From: an uncultured Chthonomonas sp.
Lineage (GTDB): Bacteria; Armatimonadota; Chthonomonadetes; Chthonomonadales; Chthonomonadaceae
Assembly (NCBI GenBank): GCA_903859705.1
Contig: CAIONQ010000023.1
Coordinates: 1-64,000, forward strand
DNA: 64,000 nucleotides
Reading direction: 5' to 3'
Each line of letters begins with the position of its first letter. Positions within the stretch are counted from its first letter, which is position 1. A program made the translations under genes and the position numbers. The notes beneath the pieces are model-generated. The model worked only from the letters and a program-made list of their open reading frames with translations. It made no database searches and was not told where the DNA came from. This document shows positions 43,243 through 50,777 of this stretch, in pieces.

Positions 43243-45624
43243 GTGATGGTTCTTTCGTATTCCCTTTTGCGATTTTGTTTGGTGCTGTGTGCGGCACTGA
43301 TATTTGGGTGCACACTGTCTGCATCTGCTCAGCCCACGCGTAGAGCGGTGCCACTGAAGGCCGCCCCCCTGCCGCTGAACGATGTTCGGTTAACCGGTGG
43401 GCCGCTGCTACATGCCCAACAGTTGGATGCTGCCTATTTGCTGAGCCTTAGCCCGGATAGAATGCTATCTTACTACCGTGTTCAGGCGGGCCTGAAACCA
43501 AAGGCAGAGGGGTACGGCGGCTGGGATGGCGGTGGCAAAAACCTCACCGGTCATATTGCTGGCCACTACCTTTCGGCCATCTGCTTTATGTACCAGGCAA
43601 CCGGCAACGAGGAGTTCAAGAAGCGGGCAATCTACATCGTGGATGAGCTTGCCGAAGTTCAAGCAAAACATGGCGACGGGTATTGTGGCGCGCTGGAGCA
43701 CCTTGAAGAGAGGTTCGCGGAGGTTTCCAGAGGGGATATCCGATCTGGCGGGTTTGATTTAAATGGCCTGTGGTCGCCGTGGTACACCCTTCACAAAACG
43801 TATGCTGGCCTGCGCGATGCGTATCACGTTTTGCATCTTAAAAAGGCCCTTGATGTTGAGATTGGGTTTTCTGCCTGGGCAGAACACGTGCTTGCTCCGT
43901 TAACTTCGGAGCAAATTCAAAAGATGCTGAACACAGAGTTTGGCGGAATGAATGAAGTGCTTGCCGATCTCTATGCGGATACAGGCGATAATCGCTGGCT
44001 TACACTCTCAGAGAAGTTTGTGCACCACTCGGTGGTGGATCCGCTTGCTGCCGGGCAGGATATTTTGCCCGGCAAACATGGCAACACTCAGGTGCCCAAA
44101 CTTCTGGGATCGCTCTCTCGCTATGTCTCTGCGGGAATAGCTGAGGAAGGGGCCGCAGCCCATTTCTTCTGGGATGCAGTGGCTCTGCATCACAGTTTTG
44201 CAACGGGTGGGCATGGCAAAGACGAGTATTTTGGACCGGCCGATAAGTTAAACGACTACATTGATGGCCGTACCGCCGAAAGCTGCAACGTGTACAACAT
44301 GCTCAAGTTTTCGCGCGCTCTGTTTGCCCTTGAGCCGCAGGAGAAGTATGCTGCCTTTATGGAGCGTGCCCTGTACAATCATGTGTTGGCCTCCATTTCG
44401 CCAGATAATGGCCGCATGTGTTACATGGTGCCCGTTGGGCGCAGCGTACAGCATGAGTACCAGGATATGCAGAACGATTTCACCTGCTGCGTTGGCTCTG
44501 GTATGGAGAATCATGCACTGCTCGCCGATGGTATCTATTGCGCTGGCAACGGCACTCTGTGGGTGAATATGTATGCCCCCTCCACCGCAAACTGGAAAGA
44601 GCAGGGAGTGCATCTTGATGTGCAAACCAGCCTGCCAGAGGGCGAAGCAGTAACCATCAAGCTAAGTATGGCCTCTCCTCAAACATTTACGCTTGCATTG
44701 CGCCGCCCAACCTGGGCCGGTTCTGGCTACGCGCTTAGCATTAATGGGGCCAGGCGCAGCCGGGTTACAGCGCCCGGATCTTACGTAACAATCCAGCGAA
44801 AGTGGCAGGATGGAGATACCATTCAGATGGTGTTGCCCATGCGCTTGCGGCTCGAGTCCGTTCCAGACAATCCCCGCCGTGCGGCTGTTATGCGTGGCCC
44901 ACTGGCCCTTGCTGGCAATCTCGAGAGTGCCACACCAGAGGATGAGCACTCCGCCCTGAAGCTGCCTGTAATTGTTACACCGCATGCTGCGGGCACCGCA
45001 TGGCTGCGCCCGGTGGGGAACAACGCCGCCTACGAAGCACAGGGAGAATATGCCGGGGCAGCAGGATCTGCATCTGCGGTTACGCTGAAACTTCAGCCTT
45101 TCTACACCCTGCACGATCGCAAGTATGAGGTGTACTGGGATCTGTTTACACCCACAGAGTGGAAGCACAAACAGGCCGAAGTTGCGGCAGAAAATGCCCG
45201 CATACTGGCCCTGGAGAAGATAACTGTAAGCTATGCCCACCCGGGAATGATGCAGAGCGAGCGGGATTTTGAAATGCACACGGAGGGCAGCCAGCCGGTG
45301 CGCATACTGGATAGAGCCGGGCGAGGCGGCCGAGGTTGGTTCACTTTTGATATGCCCGTAGATGCAAGCGCACACAACGCGCTGGTGGTAACTTACTTTA
45401 CAAACGAACGTCGGCCCGCCGCCTTCAAGCTGCTGATAGATGGGGTAGAGATTGCCAATCAGAGCGCAGTTCGCTCATCGCCAGCAAAGTTTGTAGACGT
45501 TACGTACGCTGTACCGCCCGCAGTTACTCAGAACAAAAAGAAAGTGACCATCCGTTTTGAATCTACGGCTGGCCACGATCTGGCTTCTGTATTTGGGCTT
45601 CGCGTAATCCGAGATCAGCACTAA
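43243..45624 (+). CDS. secreted GH127 beta-L-arabinofuranosidase-like enzyme
   Basis: A 793-residue exported hydrolase. After the signal peptide (ends SASAQ) comes the GH127 (alpha/alpha)6 core: LTGGPLLHAQQLDAAYLL, YGGWDGGGKNLTGHIAGHYLSA, MNEVLADLYADTGD, HGNTQVPKLLG. The HypBA1-type zinc/catalytic site is intact: TAESCNVYN (Glu346, Cys348) and TCCVGSGMENHA (Cys415-Cys416), so it should be active with a catalytic cysteine. The C-terminal half is beta-rich. Enzymes of the family release L-arabinofuranose from arabinooligosaccharides or hydroxyproline-linked glycans. Start GTG 43243 or ATG 43246 follows the upstream stop directly. Its end overlaps the opposing GNAT fusion by four bases. Confidence 0.93.
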   Translation: MMVLSYSLLRFCLVLCAALIFGCTLSASAQPTRRAVPLKAAPLPLNDVRLTGGPLLHAQQLDAAYLLSLSPDRMLSYYRVQAGLKPKAEGYGGWDGGGKNLTGHIAGHYLSAICFMYQATGNEEFKKRAIYIVDELAEVQAKHGDGYCGALEHLEERFAEVSRGDIRSGGFDLNGLWSPWYTLHKTYAGLRDAYHVLHLKKALDVEIGFSAWAEHVLAPLTSEQIQKMLNTEFGGMNEVLADLYADTGDNRWLTLSEKFVHHSVVDPLAAGQDILPGKHGNTQVPKLLGSLSRYVSAGIAEEGAAAHFFWDAVALHHSFATGGHGKDEYFGPADKLNDYIDGRTAESCNVYNMLKFSRALFALEPQEKYAAFMERALYNHVLASISPDNGRMCYMVPVGRSVQHEYQDMQNDFTCCVGSGMENHALLADGIYCAGNGTLWVNMYAPSTANWKEQGVHLDVQTSLPEGEAVTIKLSMASPQTFTLALRRPTWAGSGYALSINGARRSRVTAPGSYVTIQRKWQDGDTIQMVLPMRLRLESVPDNPRRAAVMRGPLALAGNLESATPEDEHSALKLPVIVTPHAAGTAWLRPVGNNAAYEAQGEYAGAAGSASAVTLKLQPFYTLHDRKYEVYWDLFTPTEWKHKQAEVAAENARILALEKITVSYAHPGMMQSERDFEMHTEGSQPVRILDRAGRGGRGWFTFDMPVDASAHNALVVTYFTNERRPAAFKLLIDGVEIANQSAVRSSPAKFVDVTYAVPPAVTQNKKKVTIRFESTAGHDLASVFGLRVIRDQH

Positions 45625-48600
45625 GGCAGATCAGTAAGTGCCTTAAGGGATCGCAAGCGATCTATATCCTCATCGGCAGGTTCAAGAACTAGCCAGAGCA
45701 AGGATCTTTCCGATTCGCCTGGCTTTATGGTGATTTCGCCGCCGGTGCCGAAGTTAGCACCGTGAACGCCGAAGTCCTCGGTTTTCATTGCACCCCCCGT
45801 TTCGCCACCGCTCGCAATCAGCAGCATGCGGTGGCCATCGGTACTTTCTGTAAGTCCGCAGCCGTAAACGTTATGTTCATGGCTAAACTGGCTCAGCCTG
45901 CGCACACGCTTTTGCCCATTGTTCCACCAGGTTGTCGTAGCTGATTTGCCAGCAATGACCTCGCCCGGGTTGGTCCAGCATGCTACACCCGCATTGGGCA
46001 GGCTGATGGGGCCCGTAGTTGGGTTGTGCCAGGTTACCATCACTACGGCCATAGAAGTATCGGCCCTGGTGAGGTATTCGGTTTTCACCTGCAGACCTCG
46101 GCGCAACCGGTGCTGCAGGGTGCAGCTTGTTTCTACACCGCTCCACTGAAGCCCGCGTGTTCCTACCCGGTCTGTAACCACCCGGGCAGCAAAAGCCTCT
46201 TTTGTTAACAGAAAACCACCAATCCACTCCAGGTATGGATGCACACCCCCAAACCATGGGTTAGACCATACCATCGGCCGACTTTGTGGATAGCTGGAGG
46301 TTAGGTATTCAAAGCTGCCATGCTGCAGAGAGAACATACTGCCAGCAAATCTGGGGCTTACCTGGAAGCGGATATTGCCATTATCAACGGTGTATATCCC
46401 TGCCTCGCCCTCCTCCGCTACTGCCACGGGAATTTTGCTGCCAACTGAGATTACCGGTGATTCTATGGTGATATCGTAACGGGGCAGCCGCAGTTCCGCT
46501 GTCAGGTCTGCGGTGGCACCATTGGCTGCACAGATGCTCAGCTCCCGTGTAATTGTCTCATTCTGTACAATGCCAATATTCGGTAGTTCGATGCTTTCGG
46601 GTGATACAGTCGCTCCGCCAGCACTAATGTGGATCTCGCCCAGCAAAGGTGCACCCAGCCTGTTTGCCGCAGATAGACTCACCGTAACTGCCTCATCTGT
46701 AGGCAGCAACACGGGGTTCACCGAGAACGTTAGTTCTCGCCCCGCAATTTTCTTAAGCTCTTCGGGCTCCGCCGTCCCCGCTTTCCGGGTTAGCCTTTGC
46801 CAGAGGTTGCGAACGGTGCTGAAGTTGCCAGGGCCAAGATACACGTACATGGGTTCCAGAGTTACCGAACCATGCGCGGGAACAGGGCCAGTTTGTAAGG
46901 TTAGGGAGGGCACCCACTCGTTTTCGTAAACTCCCTCTCCCCTCCACAAAAGGCCCGCCACTCCGCCCTTCATCTCCATGGCAACCCAGCCTTCCGAAAG
47001 GCTTTTGCCTTCCGCCAGGAAGTCCGCAGTGCATACCGGGAAGCCATCCAGATCGGAAGTAAGTTCGTGCAGAACCCCTGATTCCAGTGGCAATGCCAGC
47101 GCCAGGGGGTGGGAGCGACCCGTGTTTACGCGGATAGCGCCATCAAACGCCTCTGCTGCGGTATTTTGCAGCGTGATTTCTATTCGCAAAAGCGAATCAG
47201 ATAGCGGTGTAACGGCACGCGTAACCGTAATATCTGGCTGTTCAACCGTATGTCCGCTAATTGCGGCAGCACCTGCAGGAAGATGAGGCAGCTGCAGCGG
47301 GAGATATGGCCACTTTCGCCATCGCCAGGGATTATACGGTGGGCCAACATCCGGTATTGTCAGCTCCATCTGCAAACCTGTGGCTTTGTTGCTGAAATGC
47401 AGGCGGCCGCCGAGCAGGTTCTGGCACACCGAATATCCGGCTGATTCCTGCACCAGTGTGTCAGCACCAGAATCTACAAACACCAGTGGAGACCCCGCGT
47501 GGCACCGCAGCATCAGCGGCACATGCTCTATATGGTTTCCGCTATCAATCTGTACGATGGCCTGGTATGCCCCACCGTTGGCGATAGTTACTTCGGCCTT
47601 CATCTCGGCAACTGCGCAGGGCAGCAGGTTGAGAGTGCTGCTCTCCAGGTTAAATTCAGTGCCTTCTGGAACGATAATCGAAACAGTGATGCTGCGGGAG
47701 CAATCCACACTGTTCTTGATGGAAAGCTGAACCGCTTGCGGTACCCCGGGGTAGAAGGCGGATTCACTGAGCGTTGCTTCAAATGGGCGCACGAAGCGGG
47801 CCCCGGTTTCCAGAACCACTGTTTCCACTGCGCCATCGAGGTCGATGCCTTCAATACGGGTGGTTAACCTGCCGTGCCGCCGGCCATCTTTAATAGGTTG
47901 TGCTCCAAAATTCGCAGATACAATCCCCATACTTTCGGTTGGAACTCCGGCAACAGTGCTGGCGTTTAGCTGTGCTTCCAGCCACTCATCACCCTGGGCA
48001 GTAATTGTAACTGGGGTGTTGGGGTTCTTCTTCCATGTTACTTTCCAGGCAGCATCCAGATTGTCTCCGGCGGCCACAATGCCGGCTGGGCCGGTTAACC
48101 CGGTTAACACGCACGAGGCTTCCAGTTGCGCACAATCAATAGCGGTTATCCCGCCAGAGGCACAATCCACCGATACCGAGAGCTGGTCGTCCCCATCCTG
48201 AAACAGATACTGGTAAACCGGCATGCCGTTGAGATTGGCTTTGTCCGGTACCAACTCTGGCACATTTTTCAGGCAGGCATACCAATCTCTGCCAGGCTTT
48301 GAGAAGAACCACTTGCCAGGTGTGGAGTTAACGATTCCAGGCACGAAGCAGCGCATATATACATCGCTCTCCGGCTCCCACATAAATCCCATCCGCTTGT
48401 AAAGCGGCATTGCCTTTTCATTTCCGGCCCAGGTGTGCAGGGTAACTTCGCGGTAACCTTGCTCAATGCAATAGTCAATGGCGGTACGCAGAAGTCTCTT
48501 TCCAATGCCAAGGCCGTGGATAGCGGGGTCGGCATATAAGAAGGCTACATAGCCGGTATCTCCATCTGCCTCTGGAGCCTTAAGCTCGCAGATCCCTAGG

Positions 48601-48821
48601 AAACGATCGTCTGCCTCTGCCACCAGAGCTAAGTTGCACGCCCATCCTTCGAACTTCCACATCATGCCTTCCAGATGGGGTTGAATGCCGCGCTTCCAGC
48701 CACCGGGCCATCCCTCATCCAGGGTGTTGAAGAGGCCAATTAGCCTGGTTGCATCGGCCTTACTGCTTCTATCGATTGGGCGTATGGTAACGGATCCCGA
48801 GATATGTGGTGTTGAGGTCAA
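45621..48821 (-). CDS. giant GNAT acetyltransferase fused to beta-rich C-terminal region
   Basis: About 1066 residues without signal peptide. Residues about 10-160 are a GNAT domain (SVTIRPIDRSSKADATRL, VAFLYADPAIHGLGIGKRLLR with the Q/R-x-x-G-x-G/A-type CoA loop, LHTWAGNEKAMPLYKRMGF). The remaining 900 residues are unrecognised: several beta-sandwich-like modules (QAVQLSIKNSVDCSRSITVSI, ISLSAANRLGAPLLGEI) and a last part (IYTVDNGNIRFQVSPRFAG, WSNPWFGGVHPYLEWIGG) reminiscent of mutarotase-like folds. Start is uncertain: TTG 48821 places the GNAT fold correctly; ATG 48869 and GTG 48890 add residues with poor codon use, and the last overlaps a hairpin. Confidence 0.75.
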   Translation of the reverse strand: MTSTPHISGSVTIRPIDRSSKADATRLIGLFNTLDEGWPGGWKRGIQPHLEGMMWKFEGWACNLALVAEADDRFLGICELKAPEADGDTGYVAFLYADPAIHGLGIGKRLLRTAIDYCIEQGYREVTLHTWAGNEKAMPLYKRMGFMWEPESDVYMRCFVPGIVNSTPGKWFFSKPGRDWYACLKNVPELVPDKANLNGMPVYQYLFQDGDDQLSVSVDCASGGITAIDCAQLEASCVLTGLTGPAGIVAAGDNLDAAWKVTWKKNPNTPVTITAQGDEWLEAQLNASTVAGVPTESMGIVSANFGAQPIKDGRRHGRLTTRIEGIDLDGAVETVVLETGARFVRPFEATLSESAFYPGVPQAVQLSIKNSVDCSRSITVSIIVPEGTEFNLESSTLNLLPCAVAEMKAEVTIANGGAYQAIVQIDSGNHIEHVPLMLRCHAGSPLVFVDSGADTLVQESAGYSVCQNLLGGRLHFSNKATGLQMELTIPDVGPPYNPWRWRKWPYLPLQLPHLPAGAAAISGHTVEQPDITVTRAVTPLSDSLLRIEITLQNTAAEAFDGAIRVNTGRSHPLALALPLESGVLHELTSDLDGFPVCTADFLAEGKSLSEGWVAMEMKGGVAGLLWRGEGVYENEWVPSLTLQTGPVPAHGSVTLEPMYVYLGPGNFSTVRNLWQRLTRKAGTAEPEELKKIAGRELTFSVNPVLLPTDEAVTVSLSAANRLGAPLLGEIHISAGGATVSPESIELPNIGIVQNETITRELSICAANGATADLTAELRLPRYDITIESPVISVGSKIPVAVAEEGEAGIYTVDNGNIRFQVSPRFAGSMFSLQHGSFEYLTSSYPQSRPMVWSNPWFGGVHPYLEWIGGFLLTKEAFAARVVTDRVGTRGLQWSGVETSCTLQHRLRRGLQVKTEYLTRADTSMAVVMVTWHNPTTGPISLPNAGVACWTNPGEVIAGKSATTTWWNNGQKRVRRLSQFSHEHNVYGCGLTESTDGHRMLLIASGGETGGAMKTEDFGVHGANFGTGGEITIKPGESERSLLWLVLEPADEDIDRLRSLKALTDLP

Positions 48822-48880: not shown

Positions 48881-48913
48881 CGGGCTCCACTTCATGATAT
48901 GAAGCGAAGCCCG
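48881..48913. repeat. long imperfect inverted repeat upstream of the GNAT fusion gene
   Basis: A 15-base arm (CGGGCTCCACTTCAT) pairs with ATGAAGCGAAGCCCG around GAT, with two mismatches, including the perfect core TTCAT-GAT-ATGAA. It lies just upstream of the likely start of the gene on the minus strand. Confidence 0.5.
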
Positions 48914-48972: not shown

Positions 48973-50604
48973 TTAGTTCAGCAGATCAGAGGGCAACCCA
49001 TCCGGGAAGAGGCCACCATAGGTTGGGTCCGGGTAAACACCGGCAGAGAAGTCCGGGATACCCTCAGAGATAAAGGGGTACGTTGGTGCGAAGGCTTTGA
49101 TGTCAGCCGGTGGGTTTGCGAACCAGGCAGCCATATTTACCTTAACTTTTACTATTGTAACACCAGGCATTATTGCGGGGCCATTGTTTGCCCCACTGTT
49201 GGGGCCGCCGTTTGCCGCGGATGCTGCCAGTGCTGCAGGCATCTGCTCGAACACCCCGCCTGCGTATCCACCTGTAACGGTGCCGTAGATGTTCACCACA
49301 AACCTCGGGAACTTGAGGGTGAATGGGCCCACGGCAGCCTGTGCAATAACCGGCACCACATAGGTGTTTATACGGGTTAATACTATGTTCACCTTGGGAG
49401 TGTTAGGTAGCAGGTAACCACCGCTTCCATCTGTAGGGCGCGCCAACACGCCGGCAATCCCCTTCTGCTCACGATCAGCAGTGGCAGCTATGGCCTTCTG
49501 AGCAATCTGCAAGTAGGAGGCATCTCGCAACGTAAGAAATGGGCTGGCAGGCAGGTACTCTCCAGGCTCGAGCTTGCCGTTATTGTTTTTATCCAGATAA
49601 CCAAAGTAGGGAACAAGGGAGTTAGTTACGCTGGTGGCTGGTTCCGAAATGCCGGGCGGTGGTGCAGAGCCAGCCGAGTTGGAGCTGCCCGTGTTGGCCA
49701 TTGTTATAACGCCTGTGTTATCGCCGTTACTACGATCGCGGATGTATGCCAGTGAAAGTGCTATTTCGGAGCGCATAGAGTTAACATATGCGTCGAAAAG
49801 GTAAACCTCGGGCAGGCCAATCGTTACTGTTGCACCATTTTGATCGGGAGCAGGCAAGGTGTAGGTGAAATTAGCATCAGCCTCCACAATTGCCAGGTCG
49901 TCGGCTACAGTGCCGAGATCTGCAAGTAGCTTCTGCCTACGCGCCACATCAGAAGAATCGCCAAAATAGCCATTAAACGGCATCATGCCGAATCTGAGAT
50001 CAGCAATGGGGCCAAGCATTTCAAGCAAGGTATTTGGGTTGGAAAGGCCACGATTGAGGAACCAGATAAGGCTGAGTTGATTGTGGCCGGGAACAGGCGC
50101 CGAAATGGTGGTGTCATCTGGCGGCGATGGGGGCATGGTGCCGGTTGTAGGCGGATCTGGAACGAGGCCCACACCGGGCGAACCTCCACCTGAAGGGGCA
50201 TTGCCGCGAGTTATTGCCGTTGTGCTTCTGCCCGGAAGATGTGTACTGCCGGTGCTTCCTGCGCCGCTGGAACCACCGGAAGCAGCGGTGCTTCCGGCAT
50301 CCATACCCTCGCCGCAAATGCCTGCAAGCGAAATTGCCTCACCAAAGCGTGCCTGAGAACTGCCGGGATTGGAGCGCACTGCCTTCTGAAACAGCGAGAA
50401 TGCGTCGCCAAGGGTTTGAGTAGATGTATTGGAGCTGCCGGATGCCAGATTCACCAGAACGGATCGGCCAGCCGCAAGCGGGTCTACAGGAGTAGAGGTA
50501 CCTCCACCACCGCCGCACCCCGTTAGTGAAAGCGTAAACGCGCCGACTATGGTAATTGCAGCAGTAACTCTGCTGGCAATCCCCACGGCATCTCGATGCT
50601 TCAT
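48973..50604 (-). CDS. EF-hand-containing lipoprotein of unknown function
   Basis: A 543-residue exported lipoprotein: signal helix ending LSLTGC (lipobox), then a Gly run (GGGGG), a TPR-like helix pair (TQTLGDAFSLFQKAVRSNPGSSQARFGEAISLA), a low-complexity Gly/Ser/Pro linker, a largely unknown body, and a canonical calcium loop D-K-N-N-N-G-K-L-E-P-G-E-Y, 12 residues like an EF-hand or dockerin. I do not recognise the family. GGGGGAG lies 6 bases before ATG 50604 (the earlier ATG 50610 is too close). A strong promoter lies at 50749-50777, giving a leader of about 140 bases. Confidence 0.8.
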   Translation of the reverse strand: MKHRDAVGIASRVTAAITIVGAFTLSLTGCGGGGGTSTPVDPLAAGRSVLVNLASGSSNTSTQTLGDAFSLFQKAVRSNPGSSQARFGEAISLAGICGEGMDAGSTAASGGSSGAGSTGSTHLPGRSTTAITRGNAPSGGGSPGVGLVPDPPTTGTMPPSPPDDTTISAPVPGHNQLSLIWFLNRGLSNPNTLLEMLGPIADLRFGMMPFNGYFGDSSDVARRQKLLADLGTVADDLAIVEADANFTYTLPAPDQNGATVTIGLPEVYLFDAYVNSMRSEIALSLAYIRDRSNGDNTGVITMANTGSSNSAGSAPPPGISEPATSVTNSLVPYFGYLDKNNNGKLEPGEYLPASPFLTLRDASYLQIAQKAIAATADREQKGIAGVLARPTDGSGGYLLPNTPKVNIVLTRINTYVVPVIAQAAVGPFTLKFPRFVVNIYGTVTGGYAGGVFEQMPAALAASAANGGPNSGANNGPAIMPGVTIVKVKVNMAAWFANPPADIKAFAPTYPFISEGIPDFSAGVYPDPTYGGLFPDGLPSDLLN

Positions 50605-50748
50605 CGTCATCTCCCCCGAGCGCACGCCTGCAGGCGGGCCCGGACTGCTTGAATACTCACGGTTGCAAAAAAAGTGTGGGGGAAACCGTCGCAATTTCAG
50701 CGCCAATACTGCAGAACCGGTGGGGGCCAGCATGGTGCAGAATTGCTG

Positions 50749-50777
50749 ATTATAGCACAAGGCACCGAATGTGCCAA
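50749..50777 (-). promoter_or_regulatory. strong promoter of the EF-hand lipoprotein gene
   Basis: On the minus strand TTGGCA (50772-50777) and TATAAT (50749-50754) are exactly 17 bases apart, with TGC before the -10 giving an extended -10. The transcript would start near 50742 and have a leader of about 138 bases. The stretch 50605-50971 otherwise holds only this and the -10 of the helicase gene. Confidence 0.8.

Follow-up and report, generated by a model that had tools for sequence, protein, structure and literature searches.

A giant GNAT acetyltransferase with two predicted mutarotase-like domains in an uncultured Chthonomonas sp., and its family in bacteria and archaea

Introduction

Fusions of GNAT acetyltransferases are known, and in the closest described systems the GNAT-type domain shares a polypeptide with a carbohydrate-enzyme-like or carbohydrate-active domain. 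As outlined in the report on Ngs1 of Candida albicans, ligand binding switches the acetyltransferase activity of that protein, which is a precedent for sugar-gated acetylation (PMC5063960). In RmNag, a fungal GH3 N-acetylglucosaminidase, the GNAT region is described as acetylating glucosamine, a precedent for the acetylation of sugar amines (PMC4680927). Here we analyse a gene for a giant GNAT protein in a stretch of 64,000 nucleotides from an uncultured Chthonomonas sp. of the phylum Armatimonadota (contig CAIONQ010000023.1, positions 1 to 64,000), which is called the window hereafter. The gene (45621-48821, minus strand) encodes a protein of 1066 residues, in which an N-terminal GNAT domain is followed by a long arm with two predicted mutarotase-like domains in tandem. 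As far as our literature search reaches, the combination of a GNAT with tandem degenerate mutarotase-like domains appears to be undescribed: among the open-access papers listed, none was on the family by title and abstract start, with subscription papers and preprints lying outside that search.

The window protein is like Ngs1 in that a carbohydrate-enzyme-like domain is fused to a GNAT, but in the fungal protein, as its report presents it, a beta-N-acetylglucosaminidase homology domain is N-terminal and the GNAT is C-terminal, whereas here the partner is mutarotase-like and the order is reversed (PMC5063960). RmNag likewise has carbohydrate-enzyme and GNAT regions on one polypeptide, and differs in the described arrangement of an N-terminal GH3 and a tandem C-terminal GNAT, since the window protein has no such hydrolase (PMC4680927); the GH3 family was absent from the Pfam scan of the window protein at E up to 1. 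In the O-GlcNAcase with GH84, a GNAT-type domain is also joined to a carbohydrate-active domain, but in the accounts of that enzyme the GNAT is called pseudo-HAT and the hydrolase is active, whereas in the window protein it is the sugar-enzyme fold that looks degenerate and the GNAT that looks intact (PMC12494797, PMC7988489). The fold of the two mutarotase-like domains is that of GalM, the aldose 1-epimerase (3mwx, 4bze), from which they differ in that its catalytic His pair is not conserved here and no Aldose_epim sequence match was found. Moreover, super-sandwich domains of this kind occur in proteins not known as sugar enzymes, among them the TPR-domain protein BDI_1685 (5cd6) and, in its periplasmic domain, YidC; judging by the titles of the entries and to our knowledge, neither is joined to a GNAT. 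Among annotated proteins, WP_233811912.1 of Cytobacillus spongiae is a full-length relative that covers 98% of the Paenibacillus dauci member at 30% identity. It is annotated as 'GNAT family N-acetyltransferase', a name that covers the GNAT alone, and a plasmid-borne relative is annotated in the same way.

Domain architecture

The gene is a single uninterrupted reading frame of 1066 codons plus the stop codon at 45621-45623, with a TTG start at 48821 that was placed from where the relatives begin; upstream, the open frame extends to a GTG at 48890, within a 15-bp inverted repeat. The Pfam scan of the protein gave GNAT families only, the best being Acetyltransf_1 (E 3.5e-19, 69.6 bits against a cut-off of 20.7), in agreement with the initial annotation, which had read a complete GNAT domain at the N-terminus from the letters and the open reading frames (ORFs). 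In NCBIfam the window GNAT had below-cut-off GNAT matches only, and the nearest model was RimI (33 bits against a cut-off of 86.4). The remaining ~900 residues were without a Pfam match at E up to 1; in NCBIfam they had one match, at chance level (E 0.22), and no model exceeded its cut-off. In the PDB sequence searches the arm outside the GNAT had no match among the matches listed (58 of 58 in one search and the best 60 of 112 in the second). About 85% of the protein length of the family is without a Pfam entry in the copy searched.

The AlphaFold2 model of the whole protein has a mean predicted local distance difference test (pLDDT) score of 84.9 and a predicted template modelling score (pTM) of 0.83, and the ~900 residues after the GNAT are beta-rich in it. 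The predicted order is GNAT, helical linker, beta module, immunoglobulin (Ig)-like module, mutarotase-like domain A, a second Ig-like module and mutarotase-like domain B, all encoded on the minus strand; the domain boundaries and the label 'Ig-like' are our reading of the predicted strand pattern. The GNAT domain (residues 9-165; 48327-48797) is supported by Pfam, structural alignment and invariant residues, and residues 8-163 of the model have the GNAT fold (VIA-align Z 16.3 to both 2vi7 and 2i79, root-mean-square deviation (rmsd) 2.2 to 2vi7). It is followed by a conserved helical linker with W180, Y181 and D193 (residues 166-195; 48237-48326), a beta module with predicted strands and a pLDDT of about 78-97 in 10-residue blocks (residues 196-350; 47772-48236), and the first Ig-like beta module, assigned from its strand pattern (residues 351-445; 47487-47771). 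Domain A (residues 446-680; 46782-47486), in which E610 and W612 are conserved, is separated from domain B (residues 797-1066; 45624-46433) by a linker and the second Ig-like beta module, again assigned from the strand pattern, which is the region of lowest conservation (residues 681-796; 46434-46781).

Residues 795-1066, which hold domain B, aligned with 3mwx at Z 21.9 (rmsd 2.7, 234 residues aligned, 12% identity; VIA-align), with 4bze, the GalM of B. subtilis, at Z 21.8, and with the TPR-domain protein 5cd6 at Z 21.6 over 249 residues. The beta-sandwich-like modules and the mutarotase-like end that the initial annotation had proposed are borne out by the model, while the second mutarotase-like domain in the middle of the protein, and the wide spread of the family, go beyond it. 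This domain A, modelled separately (residues 440-690, pLDDT 89.6), has its best structural match in 5cd6 (Z 16.7 over 226 residues), followed by the super-sandwich domains of alpha-mannosidase and galactosaminidase (~16), YidC 5mg3 (16.3) and GalM 4bze (15.9). In Foldseek, YidC stands at ranks 2-5 for domain A, and Pfam YidC_periplas gave weak matches in 7 of 59 domain A members (best E 9e-4). For domain B no Pfam family is recurrent; 16 families each matched one of 37 members, with a best E of 5e-4. Carbohydrate enzymes or epimerases make up the majority of the 50 rows listed per domain, which partly reflects the content of the PDB. At the profile level the two domains are homologous to each other by hhalign (probability 96.5% over 207 columns, with E 1e-9 for one comparison). 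With the whole model as query, the Foldseek leaders were ciliary, complement and beta-galactosidase chains with a TM-score of at most 0.21 among the best 50 rows, and they were taken as shared strings of beta modules, not as kin.

The protein is cytoplasmic, as the initial annotation had it, by a simple hydrophobicity test: in the first 60 residues the highest 13-residue Kyte-Doolittle mean is 0.69 from the TTG start and 0.78 from the GTG start, while the same measure gives 2.8 for the neighbouring GH127 protein and 2.72 for the neighbouring DUF5695 protein. A signal peptide from an alternative start was rejected on hydrophobicity alone, as neither start yields a signal-like segment.

Distribution of the family

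A scan of genome_contigs with the single protein as query gave no relatives, while an alignment query found them: against 84,980 named species it returned 80 loci, which are the basis of the locus counts given here. The figure of 371 relatives is not used as a family count, since 80 were returned and some of the others may be ordinary GNATs. At 79 of the 80 loci the GNAT and the remainder are encoded in one ORF of 976-1780 amino acids, of which the longest is over-extended upstream and one (L060) is cut by a contig end; at the last locus (L084) they are split into two ORFs. Of the 79 ORFs, 46 are matched by the A1 profile to at least its position 1030 of 1044, while in 11 the match ends short of 950, and at the sequence level the end of domain B is the most divergent part of the family. 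In a Firmicutes relative of 1154 amino acids (L090:7947-11411), the profile matched in two stretches with ~80 extra residues between them, possibly an inserted module.

Within the phylum, comparison of the window protein with its own genome and 100 relatives found relatives over most of its length in 14 other genomes, each as one or two matched pieces, the best piece having 26-32% identity. With the A2 profile, 18 full-length or nearly full-length copies were found in 291 genomes of the phylum, including that of the window and one cut by a contig end (G051), together with pieces in G060 and G070. The domain B profile alone matched in 19 of these genomes, 18 times inside full-length genes and once as a 55-residue piece in G010. 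Furthermore, a search of the 291 genomes with degenerate DNA for the GNAT signature TW-x-GN-x-(K/Q)-AVPLYKK gave 16 matches, every one inside a full-length gene; the window gene and that of G009 depart from it and were not matched. The two halves were not seen as separate intact genes in the phylum, at the sensitivities used, and the single-polypeptide architecture is near-obligate. The same architecture could thus be found elsewhere, as the initial annotation had proposed to search for, and no frameshift is needed to explain the window gene.

The partial copies are few. In G060 a 48-residue GNAT piece lies at a contig end, and in G010 the 55 residues are the end of domain B; the other half is absent from the contig in both cases, and both are likely remnants. 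The copy of G070 (L050) is spread over three frames, is cut by a contig end and is likely broken.

By record titles, the bacterial range covers Armatimonadota, Chloroflexota, Gemmatimonadota, Planctomycetota, Bacillota, Actinomycetota, Thermotogota and several candidate phyla, and the archaeal range covers Theionarchaea, Methanomassiliicoccales, Bathy-, Thor-, Loki- and Hodarchaeota and Thermofilaceae. In all, the family is present in 18 phylum-rank groups of bacteria and archaea, mostly from metagenome bins, where stray contigs occur. In a quick tree of 69 sequences, made without bootstrap, the sequences cluster by group, with 18 changes for the 18 groups, where the minimum possible is 17 and the shuffled mean is 38.3. 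Bacillota, Chloroflexota and Armatimonadota are not single clades in it, and well-supported branches force at least three, three and two changes, respectively. The window protein pairs with an uncultured Chthonomonas sequence (SH-aLRT 97). The family looks old and patchily retained, perhaps with some transfer.

Conserved residues

Conservation was followed in alignment A2, which consists of 68 of the 80 loci and the window protein (69 sequences); two others, A3 and A4, hold 58 and 36 of the 80 loci, respectively, the latter with only two Bacillota rows. Thirteen columns of A2 are invariant, and nine of them fall in the GNAT: W38, T130, W131, N134, Y141, K142, G145, W148 and P161. Of the other four, one belongs to domain A (W612) and three to domain B (G858, G859 and W893). 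On average, the most frequent residue of a column has a share of 0.53 in the GNAT, compared with 0.25-0.44 in the other parts. Y141 stands at what we take to be the position where GNATs usually hold the catalytic Tyr. The acetyl-CoA binding loop of GNATs has the motif Q/R-x-x-G-x-G/A, and the candidate stretch of the window protein reads H102-G-L-G-I-G107; the first position is H in 53 and Q in 10 of the 69 sequences, the last G is kept in 65, and the G two before it in 34 (K in 28).

The His pair of mutarotases has the catalytic roles, and the initial annotation had asked whether such active-site residues exist in the C-terminal part. No conserved pair was found: no His column in domain A or B reaches 40% across the 69 sequences. 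As controls from the same genomes, five His columns are fully kept in 9 of 9 GalM and two in 7 of 7 other epimerases; this set is 16 of 20 fetched loci (9 classical and 7 other), with L144, L145, L147 and L152 left out. Moreover, PF01263 (Aldose_epim) was absent at E up to 1 from 37 domain B members, two of them from Bacillota, and from 59 domain A members. The active-site test rests on column conservation because hhalign of domain B against the GalM profiles gave short, weak alignments only, too weak for placing residues. Domain B is probably not an epimerase, because no His reaches 40% while the GalM controls keep theirs, and a role in binding or scaffolding probably remains for it.

Genomic neighbourhood

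In Bacillota, the gene has a close partner. Among 34 Bacillota loci, hand-picked from record titles, 26 have an Amidohydro_2-type gene, which at 25 of them lies directly downstream on the same strand, at -97 to +281 nt by ORF ends, and at the remaining one about 7 kb away. In the other eight Bacillota genomes, one close copy was found outside the fetched stretch (74% identity) and one weak match (28%). In 39 genomes of the Brevibacillus panacihumi family, 23 carry the giant GNAT, and the amidohydrolase, at E up to 1e-30, is present in 21 of the 23 carriers and in none of the 16 non-carriers (Fisher P 4e-9, ignoring relatedness). In these 21 genomes it always lies 19-29 nt downstream, measured between match ends. 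The exceptions are G333, with an in-frame stop in the GNAT gene, and G334, without such a stop. The copy of G333 (G333:C8:536249-539338) has one in-frame TAA, and as its genome is without the amidohydrolase at the cut-off, this suggests that the two genes decayed together. For Armatimonadota, a search at E up to 1e-3 found amidohydrolase matches in 8 of the 16 genomes with the giant gene and in 1 of the 10 without it, the best with 40% identity (G040), each on a contig other than that of the GNAT; the non-carriers are all from one family, so that this is no fair test.

In the window itself, the initial annotation had noted that the gene is convergent with GH127 and DUF5695 genes and had implied a functional tie to them. 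Pfam confirms both families (GH127, E 7.4e-107; DUF5695, 1256 bits) and the orientation is convergent, with the stops of the GH127 and GNAT genes overlapping by 4 nt. The implied tie was not supported. The GH127 and DUF5695 proteins look exported by their N-terminal hydrophobicity, and blastp at E up to 1e-4 found no homologue of either in the stretches around 15 Armatimonadota relatives from whole genomes or around the 80 relatives from genome_contigs; several contigs belong to both sets. A functional link to these genes was rejected, since the fetched stretches show no conserved linkage.

Directly upstream of the GNAT gene lies a gene for a lipoprotein-like protein (48973-50760, minus strand; assigned by eye), which has no Pfam match. 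A homologue with 49% identity lies directly upstream of the relative in a sister genome (L036, on the same contig as L051), and it is the sole recurring neighbour among those tested. Between this gene and the GNAT start, at 48881-48913, is the inverted repeat mentioned above, of 15 bp with 87% complementarity and a 3-nt loop. As RNA it has a strong fold (-26.8 kcal/mol, z -4.7), and it is single-copy in the genome at up to 3 mismatches; an Rfam search gave no family at gathering score, and no T-run follows it on the minus strand.

Other neighbours were seen in single groups. In two Theionarchaea loci (L067, L068), the GNAT ORF shares 9 nt with a downstream ORF resembling an ABC-transporter ATPase (by eye), after which come two ORFs common to both loci, perhaps permeases. 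In two other archaeal loci (L066:11192-11641 and L069:11129-11575), an AHSA1-type gene begins 30 nt past the GNAT gene, with a Pfam match for L066 alone. And in two Armatimonadota loci (L053:6482-7675 and L054:11186-12214), a gene for a LacI-like regulator (by eye) adjoins the giant GNAT gene in convergent orientation. An anti-phage defence system was rejected: none of the PADLOC models matched the window protein, the Brevibacillus relative, the amidohydrolase or the lipoprotein at E up to 0.01.

Possible function

We tentatively favour, as a possible reading, that the window protein is a cytoplasmic acetyl-CoA-dependent N-acetyltransferase of a widespread family, with a non-catalytic arm that captures a ligand, probably a carbohydrate or a carbohydrate-derived compound. 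The GNAT would be the catalytic unit, the arm would capture and position the ligand, whose carbohydrate nature is suggested by the fold, and the GNAT would acetylate an amine on the captured ligand itself or on its carrier. The amidohydrolase of Bacillota may act on the same compound as the GNAT. A carbohydrate-like ligand is favoured because the fold is found chiefly in carbohydrate enzymes and because the Bacillota partner belongs to the Amidohydro_2 family, which is chiefly known for small-molecule hydrolases.

Several observations weigh against this reading. Super-sandwich domains also serve without sugars, as the YidC periplasmic domain, among the best matches of domain A, makes clear. 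In domain B, the acidic E875 is present in 55 of the 69 sequences. Of the 15 Armatimonadota rows, 11 keep H861 and H904, so that a clade-specific site is possible. The window protein is a divergent member, with an end branch of 1.55 in the 69-sequence tree, C158 where 65 of the 69 sequences have N, and N186 in place of the R found in 61; the DNA of its gene departs from the GNAT signature pattern of the family. In addition, the stretches fetched around the 46 loci outside Bacillota had no such amidohydrolase, nor was there a match in the search of the genome of the window. The amidohydrolase partnership may not carry over beyond Bacillota, and it should be taken as a lead for the family and not as something established for the window locus.

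YidC is not known as a sugar enzyme, and because it shares the fold, the serious rival is a protein acetyltransferase, in which the two super-sandwich domains would form a protein-recognition scaffold that brings clients to the GNAT, with no sugar involved. We regard this as rather unlikely, and it draws on the matches of YidC to domain A (Foldseek ranks 2-5, Z 16.3 for 5mg3 and the weak YidC_periplas matches in 7 of 59 members), on the TPR-domain protein 5cd6 being the best or near-best match of both domains, and on RimI as the nearest NCBIfam model to the window GNAT, though at 33 bits against 86.4. Most of the structures listed for each domain are nevertheless carbohydrate enzymes or epimerases, partly owing to the content of the PDB, and the Bacillota partner speaks for a small molecule. 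More doubtful is a ligand-gated acetyltransferase sensor, a prokaryotic counterpart of the fungal Ngs1, in which the degenerate sugar-enzyme domains would bind an effector and switch the GNAT on. The fusion of a degenerate carbohydrate-enzyme fold to an apparently intact GNAT is comparable with Ngs1 as its report outlines it (PMC5063960), and the LacI-like gene adjoining the GNAT gene in L053 and L054 would suit a sensor. But the domain order is reversed, the sugar-enzyme fold is different (GH3-like in Ngs1, mutarotase-like here), and across the 80 loci no regulator turns up repeatedly as a neighbour. An equally doubtful wider form of the idea is that of an old sensor shared by bacteria and archaea, including the Asgard group, in which two degenerate epimerase folds would gate a GNAT acting on proteins or on a metabolite, and the Bacillota amidohydrolase would remove or remodel the ligand.

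It seems very improbable that domain B works as an aldose 1-epimerase, or as some other enzyme whose active site is unusual, which would make the protein bifunctional. The fold of domain B matches GalM very well, and besides E875 and the Armatimonadota His residues, E610 in domain A (64 of 69) and N814 (65) and Y916 (52) in domain B are widely kept, but the lack of any His column at 40% in either domain, where the controls keep theirs, and the lack of an Aldose_epim match argue otherwise. An artefact, that is, two genes merged by a frameshift or a misassembly, has practically no chance of being the explanation and was rejected: broken or partial genes occur in a few relatives (L084, G010, G060 and G070), and nothing of the kind is seen for the window, while one ORF at 79 of 80 loci and the 18 full-length or nearly full-length copies in 291 genomes stand against it.

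For the family, most of the length is now assignable to a predicted fold, and the GNAT signature gives a handle for finding further members. The tight pairing with the amidohydrolase occurs in the culturable Brevibacillus and Paenibacillus, which makes the function directly testable there. If it is true that the arm is a ligand sensor, the family would represent a new prokaryotic way of coupling a metabolite to acetylation.

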